A stretch of DNA of 64,000 nt from Billgrantia ethanolica (GTDB lineage Bacteria > Pseudomonadota > Gammaproteobacteria > Pseudomonadales > Halomonadaceae). The stretch spans positions 1-64,000 of the forward strand of contig NZ_JABFTX010000006.1 in NCBI RefSeq assembly GCF_021404305.1, given 5' to 3'. Position 1 is the first letter of the stretch, and every line of letters starts with the position of its first letter. A model generated the notes under the pieces. It was not told the DNA's origin and made no database searches. It worked only from the letters and a program-made list of their open reading frames with translations. Shown piece after piece: positions 58,357-63,551 of this stretch. Both the position numbers and the translations under genes were made by a program.

Positions 58357-58455
58357 GTCTGTGATTCCTGTGTCGTTCAGTCGTCGAATCTGGCCCGGCT
58401 TCCCTGAACGGGCTCCCATGTTGTCAATTATTCCCCCAGTACCTCATCGTCCAGG

Positions 58456-58770
58456 CGCTGGCACCACCAACACTCCCCAAACCAGCCAATCCTAAGTTGG
58501 CTTGATGGTACTACCATCACCCCCGAGGCTTTCCTGGGCGTTGGCGCTACCATCACCCCCCAAACCAGCCAATCCTAAGTTGGCTTGATGGTACTACCAT
58601 CACCCCCGAGGCTTTCCTGGGCGCTGGCACCACCAACACTCCCCAAGCCAACCAATCCTAAGTTGGCTTGATGGTACTACCATCACCCCCGAGGCTTTCC
58701 TGGGCGTTGGCGCTACCATCGCCCCCCAAACCAGCCAATCCTAAGTTGGCTTGATGGCACTACCATCCCC
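58456..58770. repeat. Four 83-bp tandem repeats in ABAB order
   Basis: The word cctaagttggc recurs at 58491, 58574, 58657 and 58740, giving an exact 83-bp period with three full units and a partial fourth. Units 1 and 3 share the variant ctggcaccaccaacactccc; units 2 and 4 share gttggcgctaccatc, so the array alternates. Each unit has two small hairpins: gccaa-N7-ttggc and gatggt-act-accatc. The last copy runs into the 3' end of the TIGR03761 gene. Confidence 0.95.
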
Positions 58771-59530
58771 CATTGGCAGGTTCTTCGCCCTCGGTAGGTT
58801 CGGCCACGTCCAGAGATTTGTCCTCCGACTCAGTCGCAGGTCCTGGCGTGGCAGCGGTTTGGTGCGGCTTCTGGATTTCAGGGGCATACGGGCTGCGACG
58901 GGTTCCCTTGAGAACATCGTCGGGAAGCTCCCCGAACTTCTCTCGTGCCTCACGCGCCTTGGCATTGTTGGCGGCAAAGTCATCGCGAGTAACACCGCTA
59001 TAACCTGGGTAGCGCTGCGGGAAGGCGCATAGACTGCGGATCTCATGGTTCACTGCATCAAGAAACCGGATGGAATCCTTCCGAGTCATCAGCGCCACAT
59101 GTGTGGCCAAGAGAATATTGCGGGCCAGACGGTCGAAATCGATCAGCAGGCGCAGGGCCAACCAGCCTTGCTGCCCCCCGGTATAGACCGGGGTAGTGAA
59201 CGGCTGCTGGTTAACGTTCTCTTCAATAGCCAATTCGCTCGGGATCTGCTCGAGCAGAGCTTCAGCATCGGCCATGGCCGCATCCAGCTTGGCCCTAACA
59301 TCCGCCAGTTTCTCATCGATGAGCAGCATCCAGTAATCAGCATATGGGTCATCACGGGTCACGTTACGCTGCACGGCGCCGGCCAGAAACAGAAACTGTC
59401 GCATCCCGATGATAGGTGGCTTCCCGCTTTCGGCATTACGGCCCCACCACGCTTTGGTGGCATGATAGGTGTGAAGGCTGAGATTGATCTTGGAGCGCAG
59501 GGCGCCCATCGAGCTGGTATCTGCTGCCAT
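58760..59530 (-). CDS. ICE protein TIGR03761 (PFL_4669-like, DUF1845)
   Basis: This 256-residue protein contains the family start LRSKINLSLHTYHATKAWWG and the segments IIGMRQFLFLAGAVQRN and WLALRLLIDFDRLARNILLA. It belongs to the replication/partition module. The acidic, low-complexity tail ends inside the last tandem repeat unit, so the C-terminal residues are dictated by the repeat. Confidence 0.9.
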   Translation of the reverse strand: MAADTSSMGALRSKINLSLHTYHATKAWWGRNAESGKPPIIGMRQFLFLAGAVQRNVTRDDPYADYWMLLIDEKLADVRAKLDAAMADAEALLEQIPSELAIEENVNQQPFTTPVYTGGQQGWLALRLLIDFDRLARNILLATHVALMTRKDSIRFLDAVNHEIRSLCAFPQRYPGYSGVTRDDFAANNAKAREAREKFGELPDDVLKGTRRSPYAPEIQKPHQTAATPGPATESEDKSLDVAEPTEGEEPANGGW

Positions 59531-59641: not shown

Positions 59642-60994
59642 TCATCTCCGAATTCCCAGGCTGGCCAGTAACTCCTGGCGCGCAGCCTGTCCATCAACCT
59701 TCTGGCCTTTGGCCGCCTCACTCGCAGGCTCATCAGGTGTGTGCGATGCGAAAGGCCCAAGTGATAGCGGCCCTGGCCCGGTGGGATGTCTGAAGGTGTC
59801 CTGAACATAGCGCTCGCCACGACGCTCCGCCTGCTGCTGGGCATGCTGCGTGACACGAAATTCACCTGCGGTCGCCCGCTTGATCAGTCCATAGAGCAGG
59901 CCGCGCGGGTTGTCGCTTTTACCCGATGCCACCTTCCCTGCCGTCTCGTCCAGCACGGCCTGCTGAAGTTCAACAGGCAGGACCGACATCGCGTCGATGA
60001 TGGTGTCCCGATCTCCGGGTTGAAGCTCCAGGAGGTCCGACCAGAACAGCTGACGTGAGTACGCCATGTCCTGTGAACGGCCCTCCTTACCAGTACGTAA
60101 GTAATGATTACTACTACGTACTGTAGTAAGGGCAGAGTTCGCCAGGGGAACTAAGCGATAACTTTTTGATTTTAGGCTTAGTTCGCTCTGAGAACTCGGA
60201 ACGGTTCTCTCGTGCCTTTCTCTGAGTTCGCTCTGAGAACTAGCAGCTAATCCATTGATTTCAGACTTGGTTCGCACCGAGAACTGGGGATTGTCACTAC
60301 TGAACCGCCTTAGTTCGCTCTGAGAACTGGGCTGCATCTCCTCGAACCTCCGCGCCCGCTGATTCAGGCGTGCTATCGGCGATGGAACGGGCTTTCGTGC
60401 TTTCCCGGGCGAATCAGGTATCAGCGCGCCCTCATCCTCGAGCTCGGATCGAATCAGCAATGCCACATCACGCACTGCCCGATTCTTGTGACGACAACTC
60501 TGTTCAACGAAGGCGAAATACTCTCTGTCGAGCATGCTGGCTTCGGTGGGAGATACGGGCTCATCGTGCAGCGCATAAACGTTACCGATGACCCGGCCAT
60601 TGGACTCGTTACGTGAGCGATGACAGAGGCTCATCCAGCGGGTCAATCGAAGCACCGCCATCACCCGGGCGACCGTGCCACGGGACGCCTGGCTTCCGAC
60701 GCCGCTCCTCAATAGCGGCTGTAGCTGATCGTAGGTGGGAAACGCCGTGGTTCTATCCGAATTGGCTAGCATGTGAATGACCTGCCAACCCAGTACATCC
60801 ACCGCCCCTAGGCGTTTATCGATCAAAAGCGCCCTTGGCACCGTCTCATGAGGGTTGCCCAAGAAGAGAAGACCATCGGCTCCTTGATCCTCAGCTTGAT
60901 CCGCCAACGCCGAGGCAGTATTGCCTCGGCGTTGCGTGATGGCGGATGCAGCACGGCCGACCAGGACCTCAACATCAGCTACATTGCGACCCAT
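59642..60994 (-). CDS. STY4528-family island replication protein
   Basis: This 450-residue protein has the STY4528-type N-terminal winged-helix region (GLLFLGNPHETVPRALLIDK, VLGWQVIHMLANSDRTTAFP, WMSLCHRSRNESNGRVIGNV) as in the replication proteins of SPI-7/PFGI-1-like islands. The centre (residues ~210-310) contains three copies of SSQSEL and is encoded by iteron-like DNA repeats. The C-terminal part (FWSDLLELQPGDRDTIIDAM) is conserved. It overlaps the DUF2857 gene by 16 bases. It is likely the replication initiator or its helper, acting on its own coding sequence. Confidence 0.88.
   Translation of the reverse strand: MGRNVADVEVLVGRAASAITQRRGNTASALADQAEDQGADGLLFLGNPHETVPRALLIDKRLGAVDVLGWQVIHMLANSDRTTAFPTYDQLQPLLRSGVGSQASRGTVARVMAVLRLTRWMSLCHRSRNESNGRVIGNVYALHDEPVSPTEASMLDREYFAFVEQSCRHKNRAVRDVALLIRSELEDEGALIPDSPGKARKPVPSPIARLNQRARRFEEMQPSSQSELRRFSSDNPQFSVRTKSEINGLAASSQSELRERHERTVPSSQSELSLKSKSYRLVPLANSALTTVRSSNHYLRTGKEGRSQDMAYSRQLFWSDLLELQPGDRDTIIDAMSVLPVELQQAVLDETAGKVASGKSDNPRGLLYGLIKRATAGEFRVTQHAQQQAERRGERYVQDTFRHPTGPGPLSLGPFASHTPDEPASEAAKGQKVDGQAARQELLASLGIRR
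60091..60123. repeat. AT-rich palindrome inside the replication gene
   Basis: The outer arms cagtacgta and tacgtactg pair perfectly and the inner part (agtaatgattact) is nearly self-complementary. It is much AT-richer than its surroundings and borders the iterons. Confidence 0.75.
60136..60328. repeat. Five iterons (17-bp palindromes), origin candidate
   Basis: Copies of the pattern agttcgctctgagaact start at 60136, 60180, 60225, 60269 and 60312. Copies 2, 3 and 5 are identical; copies 1 and 4 keep the arms agttc/gttc and gaact. Spacing is 44, 45, 44 and 43 bp, about four helical turns. Copies 2, 3 and 5 are in one reading frame (SSQSEL) but copies 1 and 4 are in others, so the DNA, not the protein, is conserved. 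Confidence 0.9.
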
Positions 60995-61605
60995 GTTGGC
61001 CCTCCTGCCGCATCCTCCTCCTGCTCATCTTGTGGTATCTCGCTTCTGGGCTGATCCGGCGCTGCCCAGTTCTTAACCAAGTGCCAGATGACCGCCAGGG
61101 GAAGTCGTGTTTCTTCCGCCAACGTCATCATGCCCTGAAGATCTAACGATGCACGCTGCGGATCACTAGGGTGAGGACAGATCGCCTGCCAACGATGCCA
61201 AGCAGCATGCTCTGCCTCTTCTGGAGGCTGTGCCAGGCGGCCTTGCCGTGACTCGAGCCCCAGTAGAGCTCGTCGCGTCGAGCAGTCGTTACCGGTGAGC
61301 CCGAAAAAGTCGGCCATCATCTGGACGCTTGCCCCCAACTCCAGACAACGATCGATTTGCATCTCGCGATCCTGGTCCTGAGTCAGTCGGTAAATCCTGG
61401 CCATCAGCATCGAATGGTCTACTGCAAGCCGACAGATGACCGCCCCTTCGCTTGCCAGCGCATCCAATTCTGTCGCAGACATCCTGCGCAGCTCGCGAAG
61501 CTCATCGTCGTTGAAACCGAGTGACCTCGCTCGCCGCATATTCCCCTCCCGCACATACCCCAGGGCCTGGTTCAGCAATGCGTGATTCAATGTTCTCGAG
61601 CTCAT
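60979..61605 (-). CDS. DUF2857-family ICE protein
   Basis: This 208-residue protein (LNHALLNQALGYVREGNMRR ... ARSLGFNDDELRELRRMSA, DFFGLTGNDCSTRRALLGLE) matches DUF2857, found between parB and the STY4528 gene in this ICE group. The helix-turn-helix-like segment around MMADFFGLTGNDCSTRRALL suggests DNA binding. It overlaps parB by four bases and STY4528 by 16. Confidence 0.88.
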   Translation of the reverse strand: MSSRTLNHALLNQALGYVREGNMRRARSLGFNDDELRELRRMSATELDALASEGAVICRLAVDHSMLMARIYRLTQDQDREMQIDRCLELGASVQMMADFFGLTGNDCSTRRALLGLESRQGRLAQPPEEAEHAAWHRWQAICPHPSDPQRASLDLQGMMTLAEETRLPLAVIWHLVKNWAAPDQPRSEIPQDEQEEDAAGGPTWVAM

Positions 61606-63551
61606 GATGCACTCCCCTCCCTCAACTGTTCCTTGAGGACTCGCATCAGCCGCACCATGCGGAAGACACGAACCAGGATCTCGTCGGGCATACCCTCGTC
61701 ATCGGAGACAGTGCCGAGCAGCTCACCAATCAAACCCACATCGGTGGGATACATGGGATGCAGCGGCTCACCAATCAGTCCGGCCAGAAACTGCCATACC
61801 CACTGTGCACGCCGGTTCTGGGCTTGCTCTTCATTGAGCGGCTCCAAGGTGTAACCCAGGCCTTCGCCAGCCTCGTGAGTGGGAATGATGGGCTTATACT
61901 GGTCTCCGGGCATGTTGATGCCTGCCCAGCGTCCGAGGTACTGGGCGAAGAGGCTGATCTCCAAGCGCAGCTCCCGAGTGCCCTGGAAGTGAGCTTCGAT
62001 CGCCCAAATGTCGGTGACAGGGTGCATCGGGCCACCAGCCATGAGGGGTATCGAGCGCAGTGCATTATTCTCGAAGTCAATGGGCTCACCACCATGCTCG
62101 CGAGCCATCATCTCGCGCATGCGACGATGGCTGTCCGCCTCGCGATGCGGCGTCACCGTGAGAGCATCGAGGCGCTGTTGACGCGCTTCCTCAGTCCACT
62201 GCTCTTCAAGATTTTCATCCGATGCAGGCGGCATCAGGCCATCGAGATCAAGATCACTATCCGATTCCGTATGGGAAGTAGATGCGATGGGGGCACGCTG
62301 AAGCAACGCACTCTCTTCCTGCAAGCGTTCAAGTTCGCGCCACAACACCGCCTGCTCACGCCGCAAAGCTTCTTGCTTGGAGTCCTGCCTGTTGGATCCA
62401 GCATTGGTCTCCATGGATTCCCTGGAAGTAGGTAAAAGACCGGGCGCCTCCTTGGCATATGCTGGCTCGCCAGTCTTGCCCTGGACCAGAGATAGCGGGT
62501 CGCCCGCACCATTGGATAAGGATGAGGCCTTGCCTCCCTGGCTATTCTTGGTCAGTGACGCAGGTTGGTAGTCAAGGGGCGGTGCATCGGGATTGCGTAG
62601 CCGTTCCATCTCGGCATCCAGCGGCCCCCAAACCTGTTCGGCATGCTCTTCAAGTGACCAGCGACGCTTGCGGTACTCCAGAATGGTTTGCAGCGCATGC
62701 TCGATCGGGCTCAGGTGGGCGCCGGTCTCGTCGGAAAGCATGCCCAAGAGGCGATCCTCGACCAGTGACCAGGGCAACACCGTCTGCCCCTCATGATCGA
62801 AGTACGCCAGGGTCTCATGCCAGGCAGGGCCAAAGTCGTCCTCCGGCTTGGCATCGCAGCGCTGCCAGATCAGCAAGCTGGCCTCACGATAGGCGATCAG
62901 TTGCTTGATCTGAGGCTGTCCCATGCCGCTTTCCAGGGTCATCGGCAGCGTCGGCCAGATATGCTCAACGGTGTGGAGCATGCGGCTGATATGGCTCTGG
63001 TCCAGGGCAAAGCCCAATACTTTTGCACGGCGTGCCAGCTCCCGCTGGGGGAGTGTCTCACCCGCCTCCGCTTCCAGTTGTTCCTTCAGAGCCTGCACCC
63101 CGAGCGACTTCTCGATCCAGGTCAGGTCTCCGCGGGTTTCGTTCTCGGAAAGATGGCCGGCCAGTGCCGCTGCTTCGGAGATCCAGGGGCGATAGATGCA
63201 GTAGAACTCATAGAACCGCTTGTCACCGGTCTCTTCGTAGAGCTCCTGAAGGATCTGCAACCTAGTGTTGCCACCATCGGAGATCATGTACTTGTCGTCA
63301 CCGGGGCGCTGGGTGATCACCGGCGGGTTCTTCAGACCGACGGCACGGATCGACTCCTTGATCTCGTCGTACTTCGGGTTGCGGAGCTTCCTCGGATTGC
63401 GGTCGTAGGCACGCAGCTTGTCGAGCGTCACCTGGATGCCCAGCTCGACCATGGGCGCCCCCAGCGAATTCACCGGCTGAGTGTTGAGGGTGGGGCCCGG
63501 CATCTGCAGTTTCACCAACAATTCGTCTTGTGAAGGGTGTTTCTTACTCAT
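61602..63551 (-). CDS. ParB-family partition protein of PFGI-1-type ICE (TIGR03764)
   Basis: This 649-residue protein has an N-terminal ParB/Srx nuclease-like domain (QVTLDKLRAYDRNPRKLRNP, KNPPVITQRPGDDKYMISDG, GNTRLQILQELYEETGD) and a helix-turn-helix (LPQRELARRAKVLGFALDQS HISRML). The C-terminal half is long and charged with a conserved end. It is the ICE version of ParB and should act with a ParA encoded beyond the window. The start has aaggagg nine bases upstream. Confidence 0.92.
   Translation of the reverse strand: MSKKHPSQDELLVKLQMPGPTLNTQPVNSLGAPMVELGIQVTLDKLRAYDRNPRKLRNPKYDEIKESIRAVGLKNPPVITQRPGDDKYMISDGGNTRLQILQELYEETGDKRFYEFYCIYRPWISEAAALAGHLSENETRGDLTWIEKSLGVQALKEQLEAEAGETLPQRELARRAKVLGFALDQSHISRMLHTVEHIWPTLPMTLESGMGQPQIKQLIAYREASLLIWQRCDAKPEDDFGPAWHETLAYFDHEGQTVLPWSLVEDRLLGMLSDETGAHLSPIEHALQTILEYRKRRWSLEEHAEQVWGPLDAEMERLRNPDAPPLDYQPASLTKNSQGGKASSLSNGAGDPLSLVQGKTGEPAYAKEAPGLLPTSRESMETNAGSNRQDSKQEALRREQAVLWRELERLQEESALLQRAPIASTSHTESDSDLDLDGLMPPASDENLEEQWTEEARQQRLDALTVTPHREADSHRRMREMMAREHGGEPIDFENNALRSIPLMAGGPMHPVTDIWAIEAHFQGTRELRLEISLFAQYLGRWAGINMPGDQYKPIIPTHEAGEGLGYTLEPLNEEQAQNRRAQWVWQFLAGLIGEPLHPMYPTDVGLIGELLGTVSDDEGMPDEILVRVFRMVRLMRVLKEQLREGSAS

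Follow-up and report, generated by a model that had tools for sequence, protein, structure and literature searches.

A putative replication origin of phased palindromic iterons inside the STY4528-family gene of integrative and conjugative elements

In lambda, the codons of the initiator gene O contain iterons, followed by an AT-rich stretch. Here we describe a similar layout in a window of 64,000 nucleotides from Billgrantia ethanolica (assembly GCF_021404305.1, contig NZ_JABFTX010000006.1, positions 1 to 64,000 of the forward strand), where a gene of an integrative and conjugative element (ICE), on the minus strand at 59642..60994 and encoding 450 amino acids, contains an array of palindromes and an adjoining AT-rich element. 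The protein scores 284.6 bits against the NF040582 model, for which the curated cut-off is 130, and so belongs to the family that NCBI names the STY4528 pathogenicity island replication protein. We propose, from comparative sequence analysis, that this gene probably carries its own replication origin, embedded in the gene of the initiator that uses it.

Origins inside initiator genes are also known from repABC plasmids; in R. etli p42d the origin (oriV) is part of repC, and replication is lost when its A+T-rich region is altered by silent changes (PMC3155836). Among ICEs, palindromes and a G+C-rich array in PFGI-1 were proposed as a putative oriV and compared with pKLC102, no Rep being encoded according to the part of that account used here (PMC2647930), and for pKLC102 as many as 30 copies for each chromosome are reported (PMC7685784). 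In ICEHin1056 an AT-rich portion of the replication module holds a putative oriV with inverted repeats and iteron-like direct repeats (PMC2258188), and ICEclc replicates transiently, with a copy number that drops when oriT1 or the relaxase is missing (PMC6561031). For the three ICEs of Pseudomonas bharatica CSV86 no oriC was predicted, as far as the consulted portion of that study goes (PMC9298801). An eight-gene cluster has been defined in which one protein, the one without a domain of unknown function (DUF), was not identifiable in the gonococcal island (PMC3334931); from its place in the cluster as given in that excerpt, it would be STY4528. Among the papers listed in literature searches, most of them judged by title and the opening of the abstract, none describes an origin inside STY4528.

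The array in the window consists of five 17-bp palindromes between 60136 and 60328, with start-to-start distances of 44, 45, 44 and 43 bp and in three reading frames, much as an earlier note on this DNA had reported. Counted from the start of the gene, the iterons are AGTTCGCTCTGAGAACT at 60312..60328 (gene nucleotide 666, phase 0), the degenerate GGTTCGCACCGAGAACT at 60269..60285 (nucleotide 709, phase 1), AGTTCGCTCTGAGAACT again at 60225..60241 and 60180..60196 (nucleotides 753 and 798, both phase 0), and AGTTCGCCAGGGGAACT at 60136..60152 (nucleotide 842, phase 2), the last before a hairpin. The three AGTTCGCTCTGAGAACT copies are identical and encode SSQSEL, and the same note was right that the other two are read as other residues; the copy at 60269 has three mismatches to the identical ones, and that at 60136 keeps AGTTC-N7-GAACT around a different centre. 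Because the gene phases are 0, 1, 0, 0 and 2, the DNA is common to the copies and the frame is not. The strict dyad AGTTCNCNNNGNGAACT has four matches in the 4.57-Mb assembly, every one in the array, the fifth copy being degenerate. With up to three mismatches allowed, the 17-mer matches the window four times, the 60136 copy not being among these, against 0.13 expected in shuffles, and the gene holds four strict dyads where synonymous shuffles give a mean of 0.16 and a maximum of two. The G+C content in 50-base intervals falls to 40–46% within 60075–60199 and 44–46% within 60225–60299, compared with 52–72% in most of the gene. Several similar repeats thus adjoin an AT-rich region, as in iteron-type origins.

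Conservation at the codon level was measured as the frequency with which sequence pairs that share a residue also share its codon. In 22 Pseudomonas-type genes this frequency is 0.94 in the iterons and 0.93 in the hairpin, compared with 0.70 in the spacers and 0.47 in the rest of the gene. The corresponding values are 0.79, 0.82, 0.64 and 0.45 in five Halomonadaceae genes including that of the window. The CTTCGG class (33 genes) has 0.95, 0.83, 0.76 and 0.55, and the AGTTTCC/AGTTCCC class, with 15 Halomonadaceae genes once L196, L197 and L203 are excluded for overlap with another Halomonadaceae group, has 0.85, 0.77, 0.74 and 0.50. Amino-acid identity, on the other hand, is 0.41–0.47 in the spacers and 0.65–0.75 in the remainder of the gene; for the Pseudomonas-type set the figures are 0.43 and 0.65, so that, in the comparison that the note had proposed, the repeats are kept even where the intervening protein diverges. 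Such divergence of the protein alongside conserved codons would result neither from selection on the protein nor from recent recombination. Together with the excess of dyads over synonymous shuffles, these sequence comparisons bear out the claim that selection is preserving the DNA itself in the repeats, and make the locus a clear example of codons and DNA sites selected in the same bases. The somewhat conserved codons of the spacers indicate that the constraint may extend beyond the 17-bp cores.

The same design recurs across the family. We collected 104 genes (15 of 29 newly fetched loci from the host's class, weak or partial ones being excluded, 8 plasmid loci, 80 relatives and the window), which left 78 representatives once near-copies were removed; loci are cited below by L numbers. 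Defining a dyad as NNTTCN7GAANN in which 6 or more of the 8 positions pair, and taking the expectation from codon shuffling that leaves the protein unchanged, we find 179 dyads in the 78 genes against 10.4 expected; the flanking DNA, 397 kb in all, has 6. At least two are present in 59 genes (two in 29, three or more in 30), and in 54 of the 78 the count exceeds the maximum of the gene's own 100 shuffles. A search for dyads independent of sequence gives clusters at 113 of 119 loci, among which that of L183, with copies 378 bp apart, is plainly spurious, and none at L212, L046, L211, L189, L056 and L122. In a separate scan, which also covered the stretches without STY4528 discussed below, the iterons form the best cluster in L248, and the second array described below does so in the window and in L035. 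In the Halomonadaceae set (45 loci, of which 6 are exact copies) a looser pattern finds 148 sites in the non-identical genes against 42.8 expected; it finds none at L116, L154, L155 and L156, L116 carrying CTTCGG-class dyads instead.

For spacing, phase and co-variation, 60 representatives were taken from 110 loci usable for comparison. Two copies are present in 26 of these genes and three to six in the other 34, in more than one codon phase in 59 of the 60. Of 132 distances between adjacent copies, 131 deviate by no more than 1 bp from a multiple of 11 bp, in 18 distinct spacing patterns; although these distances come from related genes and are not 132 independent events, their clustering indicates that phasing is present. 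The earlier claim that all copies occupy one face of the helix holds only approximately, since 44 bp corresponds to 4.2 turns at 10.5 bp per turn. The half-site itself varies. It is AGTTCGG in Pseudomonas-type elements, where the core is AGTTCGG-N3-CCGAACT, xCTTCGG in a class with beta- and alphaproteobacterial loci among its members, AGTTTCC, AGTTCTC, AGTTCGC or AGTACTC in Halomonadaceae, and AGTTCCA in ICEhin1056. By eye, an L011-like clade shows degenerate repeats that encode QNSK. A locus of the CSV86 strain (L064), possibly within one of its three published ICEs, has four in-gene iterons.

In most relatives, as in the window, the last copy is followed by an AT-rich stretch that usually contains GTAC words. 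Here this is an AT-rich inverted repeat containing GTAC at 60085..60131, inside the gene, and a candidate unwinding or strand-entry site. Its predicted DNA fold has z scores of −5.7 and −6.2 on the two strands, none of 200 shuffles being equally stable on either. In 58 of 59 genes the AT fraction of the 80 nucleotides past the last dyad is above the gene mean, and GTAC occurs 173 times in the 59 genes against 45.4 expected, at least twice in 48 of them. By eye, words of the type GTAGTAG..CTAC stand in place of GTAC in L009, L011 and L016.

The AlphaFold2 model of the STY4528 protein (mean predicted local distance difference test score, pLDDT, 68; predicted template modelling score 0.44) has two structured parts joined by a low-confidence linker, residues 237–312. 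The predicted N-terminal winged-helix part, residues ∼50–240 (60275..60847, minus strand), has 10-residue pLDDT means of 67–96 over residues 51–200 and 50–68 over 201–240, with the winged helix predicted from a helix at 105–117 and strands at 121–128 and 135–142. The predicted C-terminal domain, residues ∼315–400 (59795..60052, minus strand), is helical and bears a RepC-like motif of the type GYLxxLxxxAxxGEF. The iterons encode residues ∼223–287 and the hairpin ∼288–304, which puts the first iteron just before the linker and the other four, with the hairpin, inside it. Profile comparison with 20 repABC RepC proteins, from 26 extracted, gives an E value of 1.1e-5 and a probability of 82 over just 26 columns. 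No RP-C match reaches the Pfam cut-off; RP-C_C is weakly matched in 10 of 40 family members (best E 0.014) and not in the window protein. The arrangement of in-gene iterons and AT-rich stretch resembles that of lambda O; the iterons are different, and an O-like PHROG is matched weakly by 6 of 40 STY4528 proteins (best E 0.047) and not by that of the window. The top BFVD match is a phage helix-turn-helix (HTH) protein, with an E value of 2.8e-4 but a TM score of 0.17.

In the mechanism that we infer from this arrangement, STY4528 would bind the phased palindromes in dimeric form through its winged-helix part. With several copies bound at multiples of ∼11 bp, a nucleoprotein complex would form that opens the adjoining AT-rich stretch, and the C-terminal domain would help to recruit the helicase; DnaB is encoded upstream of ParB in annotated relatives. 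The excised circular element could then replicate in the manner of a plasmid. Since the origin would be written in the codons of a disordered linker, initiator and origin would travel together.

Several observations weigh against this proposal. The strict dyad is absent from 9 of the 78 representatives (L008, L010, L012, L013, L015, L017, L018, L034 and L055, the last with three sites of a looser pattern) and occurs only once in a further 10. The very diverged STY4528 gene of L249 shows no dyad cluster in the scan that also covered stretches without STY4528, and L250, with a clear STY4528 gene, has the second array and no TTC dyads, so that not every member fits. The inverted repeat as such surpasses every one of 25 synonymous shuffles in just 10 genes of the 59, and for this reason the AT and GTAC enrichment is better supported than the hairpin. 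There is no exact DnaA box, TTATNCACA, in the window, where matches with one mismatch number 13 against 19.6 by chance, the nearest being at 60772. A fold search of the PDB gave no significant match (best 1f4k, E 0.12), and pPant4, considered as a plasmid bearing only STY4528, was rejected because a separate replication initiation protein is present. Relaxase-dependent replication is also found in related ICEs, going by the part of the ICEclc account used here (PMC6561031). Nor does co-variation single out STY4528 over its neighbours as the binder. Iteron class tracks the divergence of STY4528, ParB and DUF2857 alike (Spearman 0.62–0.72), and the partial correlation with the STY4528 N-terminal domain given ParB and DUF2857 is −0.007 (−0.014 for the HTH), compared with 0.17 for the ParB DNA-binding region and 0.36, the best value, for DUF2857. 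Given its own C-terminal domain and ParB, the STY4528 N-terminal domain has a partial correlation of 0.10.

These correlations bear on two rival binders encoded next to STY4528. The palindromes might be parS sites for the ICE's own ParB, whose gene lies two genes away (61602..63551, minus strand; TIGR03764, 296.2 bits), and would then serve partition, not replication. Besides its partial correlation, this is favoured by the sopC site of plasmid F, which has 43-bp repeats with inverted repeats, and by the position of ParB: among 88 loci where the DNA upstream of STY4528 extends for 1.8 kb or more, tblastn places ParB there in 87. The 88th, the single candidate for an STY4528 element without ParB, was rejected as such, since a hidden Markov model (HMM) shows its ParB. 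We nevertheless consider it unlikely. Within one gene the array comes first and an element rich in AT and GTAC second, an order resembling that of an origin, and in a small sample of four ParB-bearing stretches without STY4528 (L243, L244, L245 and L247) there is no dyad cluster; L244 and L245 are one contig, L246, which ends at ParB, was excluded, and the weak ParB matches G107 and G165 were not fetched. L243 has ParB only, L244 and L245 have ParB and DUF2857, and L247 has both with PFL_4669, which suggests from gene content that the array accompanies STY4528. L247 (G346) has no STY4528 match between these three genes, resembles the gonococcal island and represents a natural deletion. Alternatively, the array could be the origin or control site of another ICE protein, most likely DUF2857 (60979..61605, minus strand; PF11198, 158.8 bits), with STY4528 acting later, for example as a helicase loader. 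DUF2857 has the strongest partial correlation, is present in all 88 loci with enough upstream DNA, and gives a weak FlhD match (E 0.016, under the cut-off). We rate this as improbable, however, given that three of the cluster-free stretches do have DUF2857 and that between L043 and L209 the iteron core changes from TTC..GAA to TAC..GTA while the DUF2857 domain stays 98% identical. That pair does not separate STY4528 from ParB, because the STY4528 HTH and the ParB domain are 88% and 89% identical, respectively. In L209 (G812), whose altered core amounts to a natural specificity switch, both arms are changed in four of the five copies and partly in the fifth. Its STY4528 has the substitution A103S in the predicted HTH, the sole change at any position on which the other 59 representatives all agree; as the aligned position is not Ala in the L009 and L011 clades either, this is a hint only.

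Two further explanations concern the nature of the palindromes. Sites of this size would suit a dimeric transcriptional regulator, for which they could be operators within the gene, but operators would not usually come as two to six copies with 11-bp phasing that share one linker and precede an AT-rich stretch, as these do throughout the 60 representatives, and we regard this as very improbable. That an SSQSEL protein repeat has been mistaken for a DNA repeat, or that the array arose by chance, could be argued from the three of five copies that share one frame; with the other two in different frames and the window gene's dyads above the range of its shuffles, and in view of the codon conservation and the spacing, we judge this refuted. 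The in-gene origin is the reading we prefer.

The ICE genes around STY4528 follow on the minus strand in the order ICE ParB, DUF2857, STY4528, PFL_4669/AcaB-like, an array of 83-bp repeats, a gene with no family match and the single-stranded DNA-binding protein gene, with a topoisomerase III gene further along. The PFL_4669/AcaB-like gene (58760..59530, minus strand) scores 221 bits for TIGR03761 and 203.9 bits for PF08900, the Pfam match to ‘Transcriptional regulator AcaB’ being well above its cut-off. The second array, at 58454..58771, has 83-bp units with TGATGGTACTACCATCA palindromes and is almost wholly intergenic, its end overlapping the 3′ end of PFL_4669 by 12 bases. By analogy, it possibly corresponds to the half of the PFGI-1 oriV that is G+C-rich in the published description available here (PMC2647930). 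Similar arrays lie downstream of STY4528 in L035, L044, L045, L058, L059, L062, L068, L192 and L209. These tandem arrays, that of the window included, consist of 17-bp palindromes that start with TG and end with CA, with arms that vary between copies yet remain complementary, and the array is perhaps a site recognised by structure. At least three TG..CA dyads are found downstream in 26 of the 60 representatives, with more than one arm sequence in 23 of the 26; since the filter requires 7 of 8 pairs, complementarity is partly selected for and arm diversity is not. Downstream tandem arrays with a period of at least 20 occur in 31 of the 60. The earlier note, whose reading stands as regards selection on the DNA, the origin-like layout and the gene family, was silent on the hairpin, on this non-coding array and on the previous oriV proposals for this ICE family.

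Comparison with those proposals defines what is added here. The Pseudomonas loci share the AGTTCGG-N3-CCGAACT core with the PFGI-1/pKLC102 oriV. In the part of the account consulted, however, that oriV is placed immediately upstream of PFL_4669 with no mention of a coding gene, and nothing is said of selection on codons, of phasing, of the GTAC element or of the range across the family, all found here (PMC2647930). ICEhin1056 (L036) holds four AGTTCCAAAAGGGAACT-type dyads in STY4528, whereas the published oriV is not placed inside a gene of this type in the excerpt seen (PMC2258188). As a proposed initiator gene, STY4528 shares with repC the link to partition genes and, with anatomy and codon-level selection in agreement, a putative A+T-rich oriV within the reading frame, and with its product the C-terminal motif over 26 aligned columns; repC is reported, in the sections used, to be free of iterons, unlike STY4528 genes, which mostly have phased palindromes (PMC3155836). 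The principle is thus not new, being preceded by repC and lambda O; what is new are the phased palindromic iterons, the GTAC-rich AT element and a proposed initiator family found in a large group of ICEs.

Within the host's family 31 of 201 genomes have a match to STY4528, and within its class 29 of 369 do, the window genome being counted in each; the closest relatives by sequence are in Halomonas and other Halomonadaceae. The record of one 88-kb circular plasmid lists no classical Rep; it lists STY4528 and a ‘STY4534 family ICE replication protein’ (the PLSDB gene table being incomplete). On balance we favour the view that STY4528 is the missing Rep of ICEs of the pKLC102/SPI-7/ICEHin1056 type in alpha-, beta- and gammaproteobacteria. 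It would form an initiator family of its own, distantly linked to RepC, and in most members the linker codons would contain the origin, with its phased palindromic iterons and GTAC-rich AT element. Such ICEs carry genes for resistance, virulence and catabolism, and the way in which their excised forms replicate has so far been unclear. With an origin and initiator defined, the copy number, incompatibility and loss of the element would become directly testable, and replication-competent ICEs would have a sequence signature.
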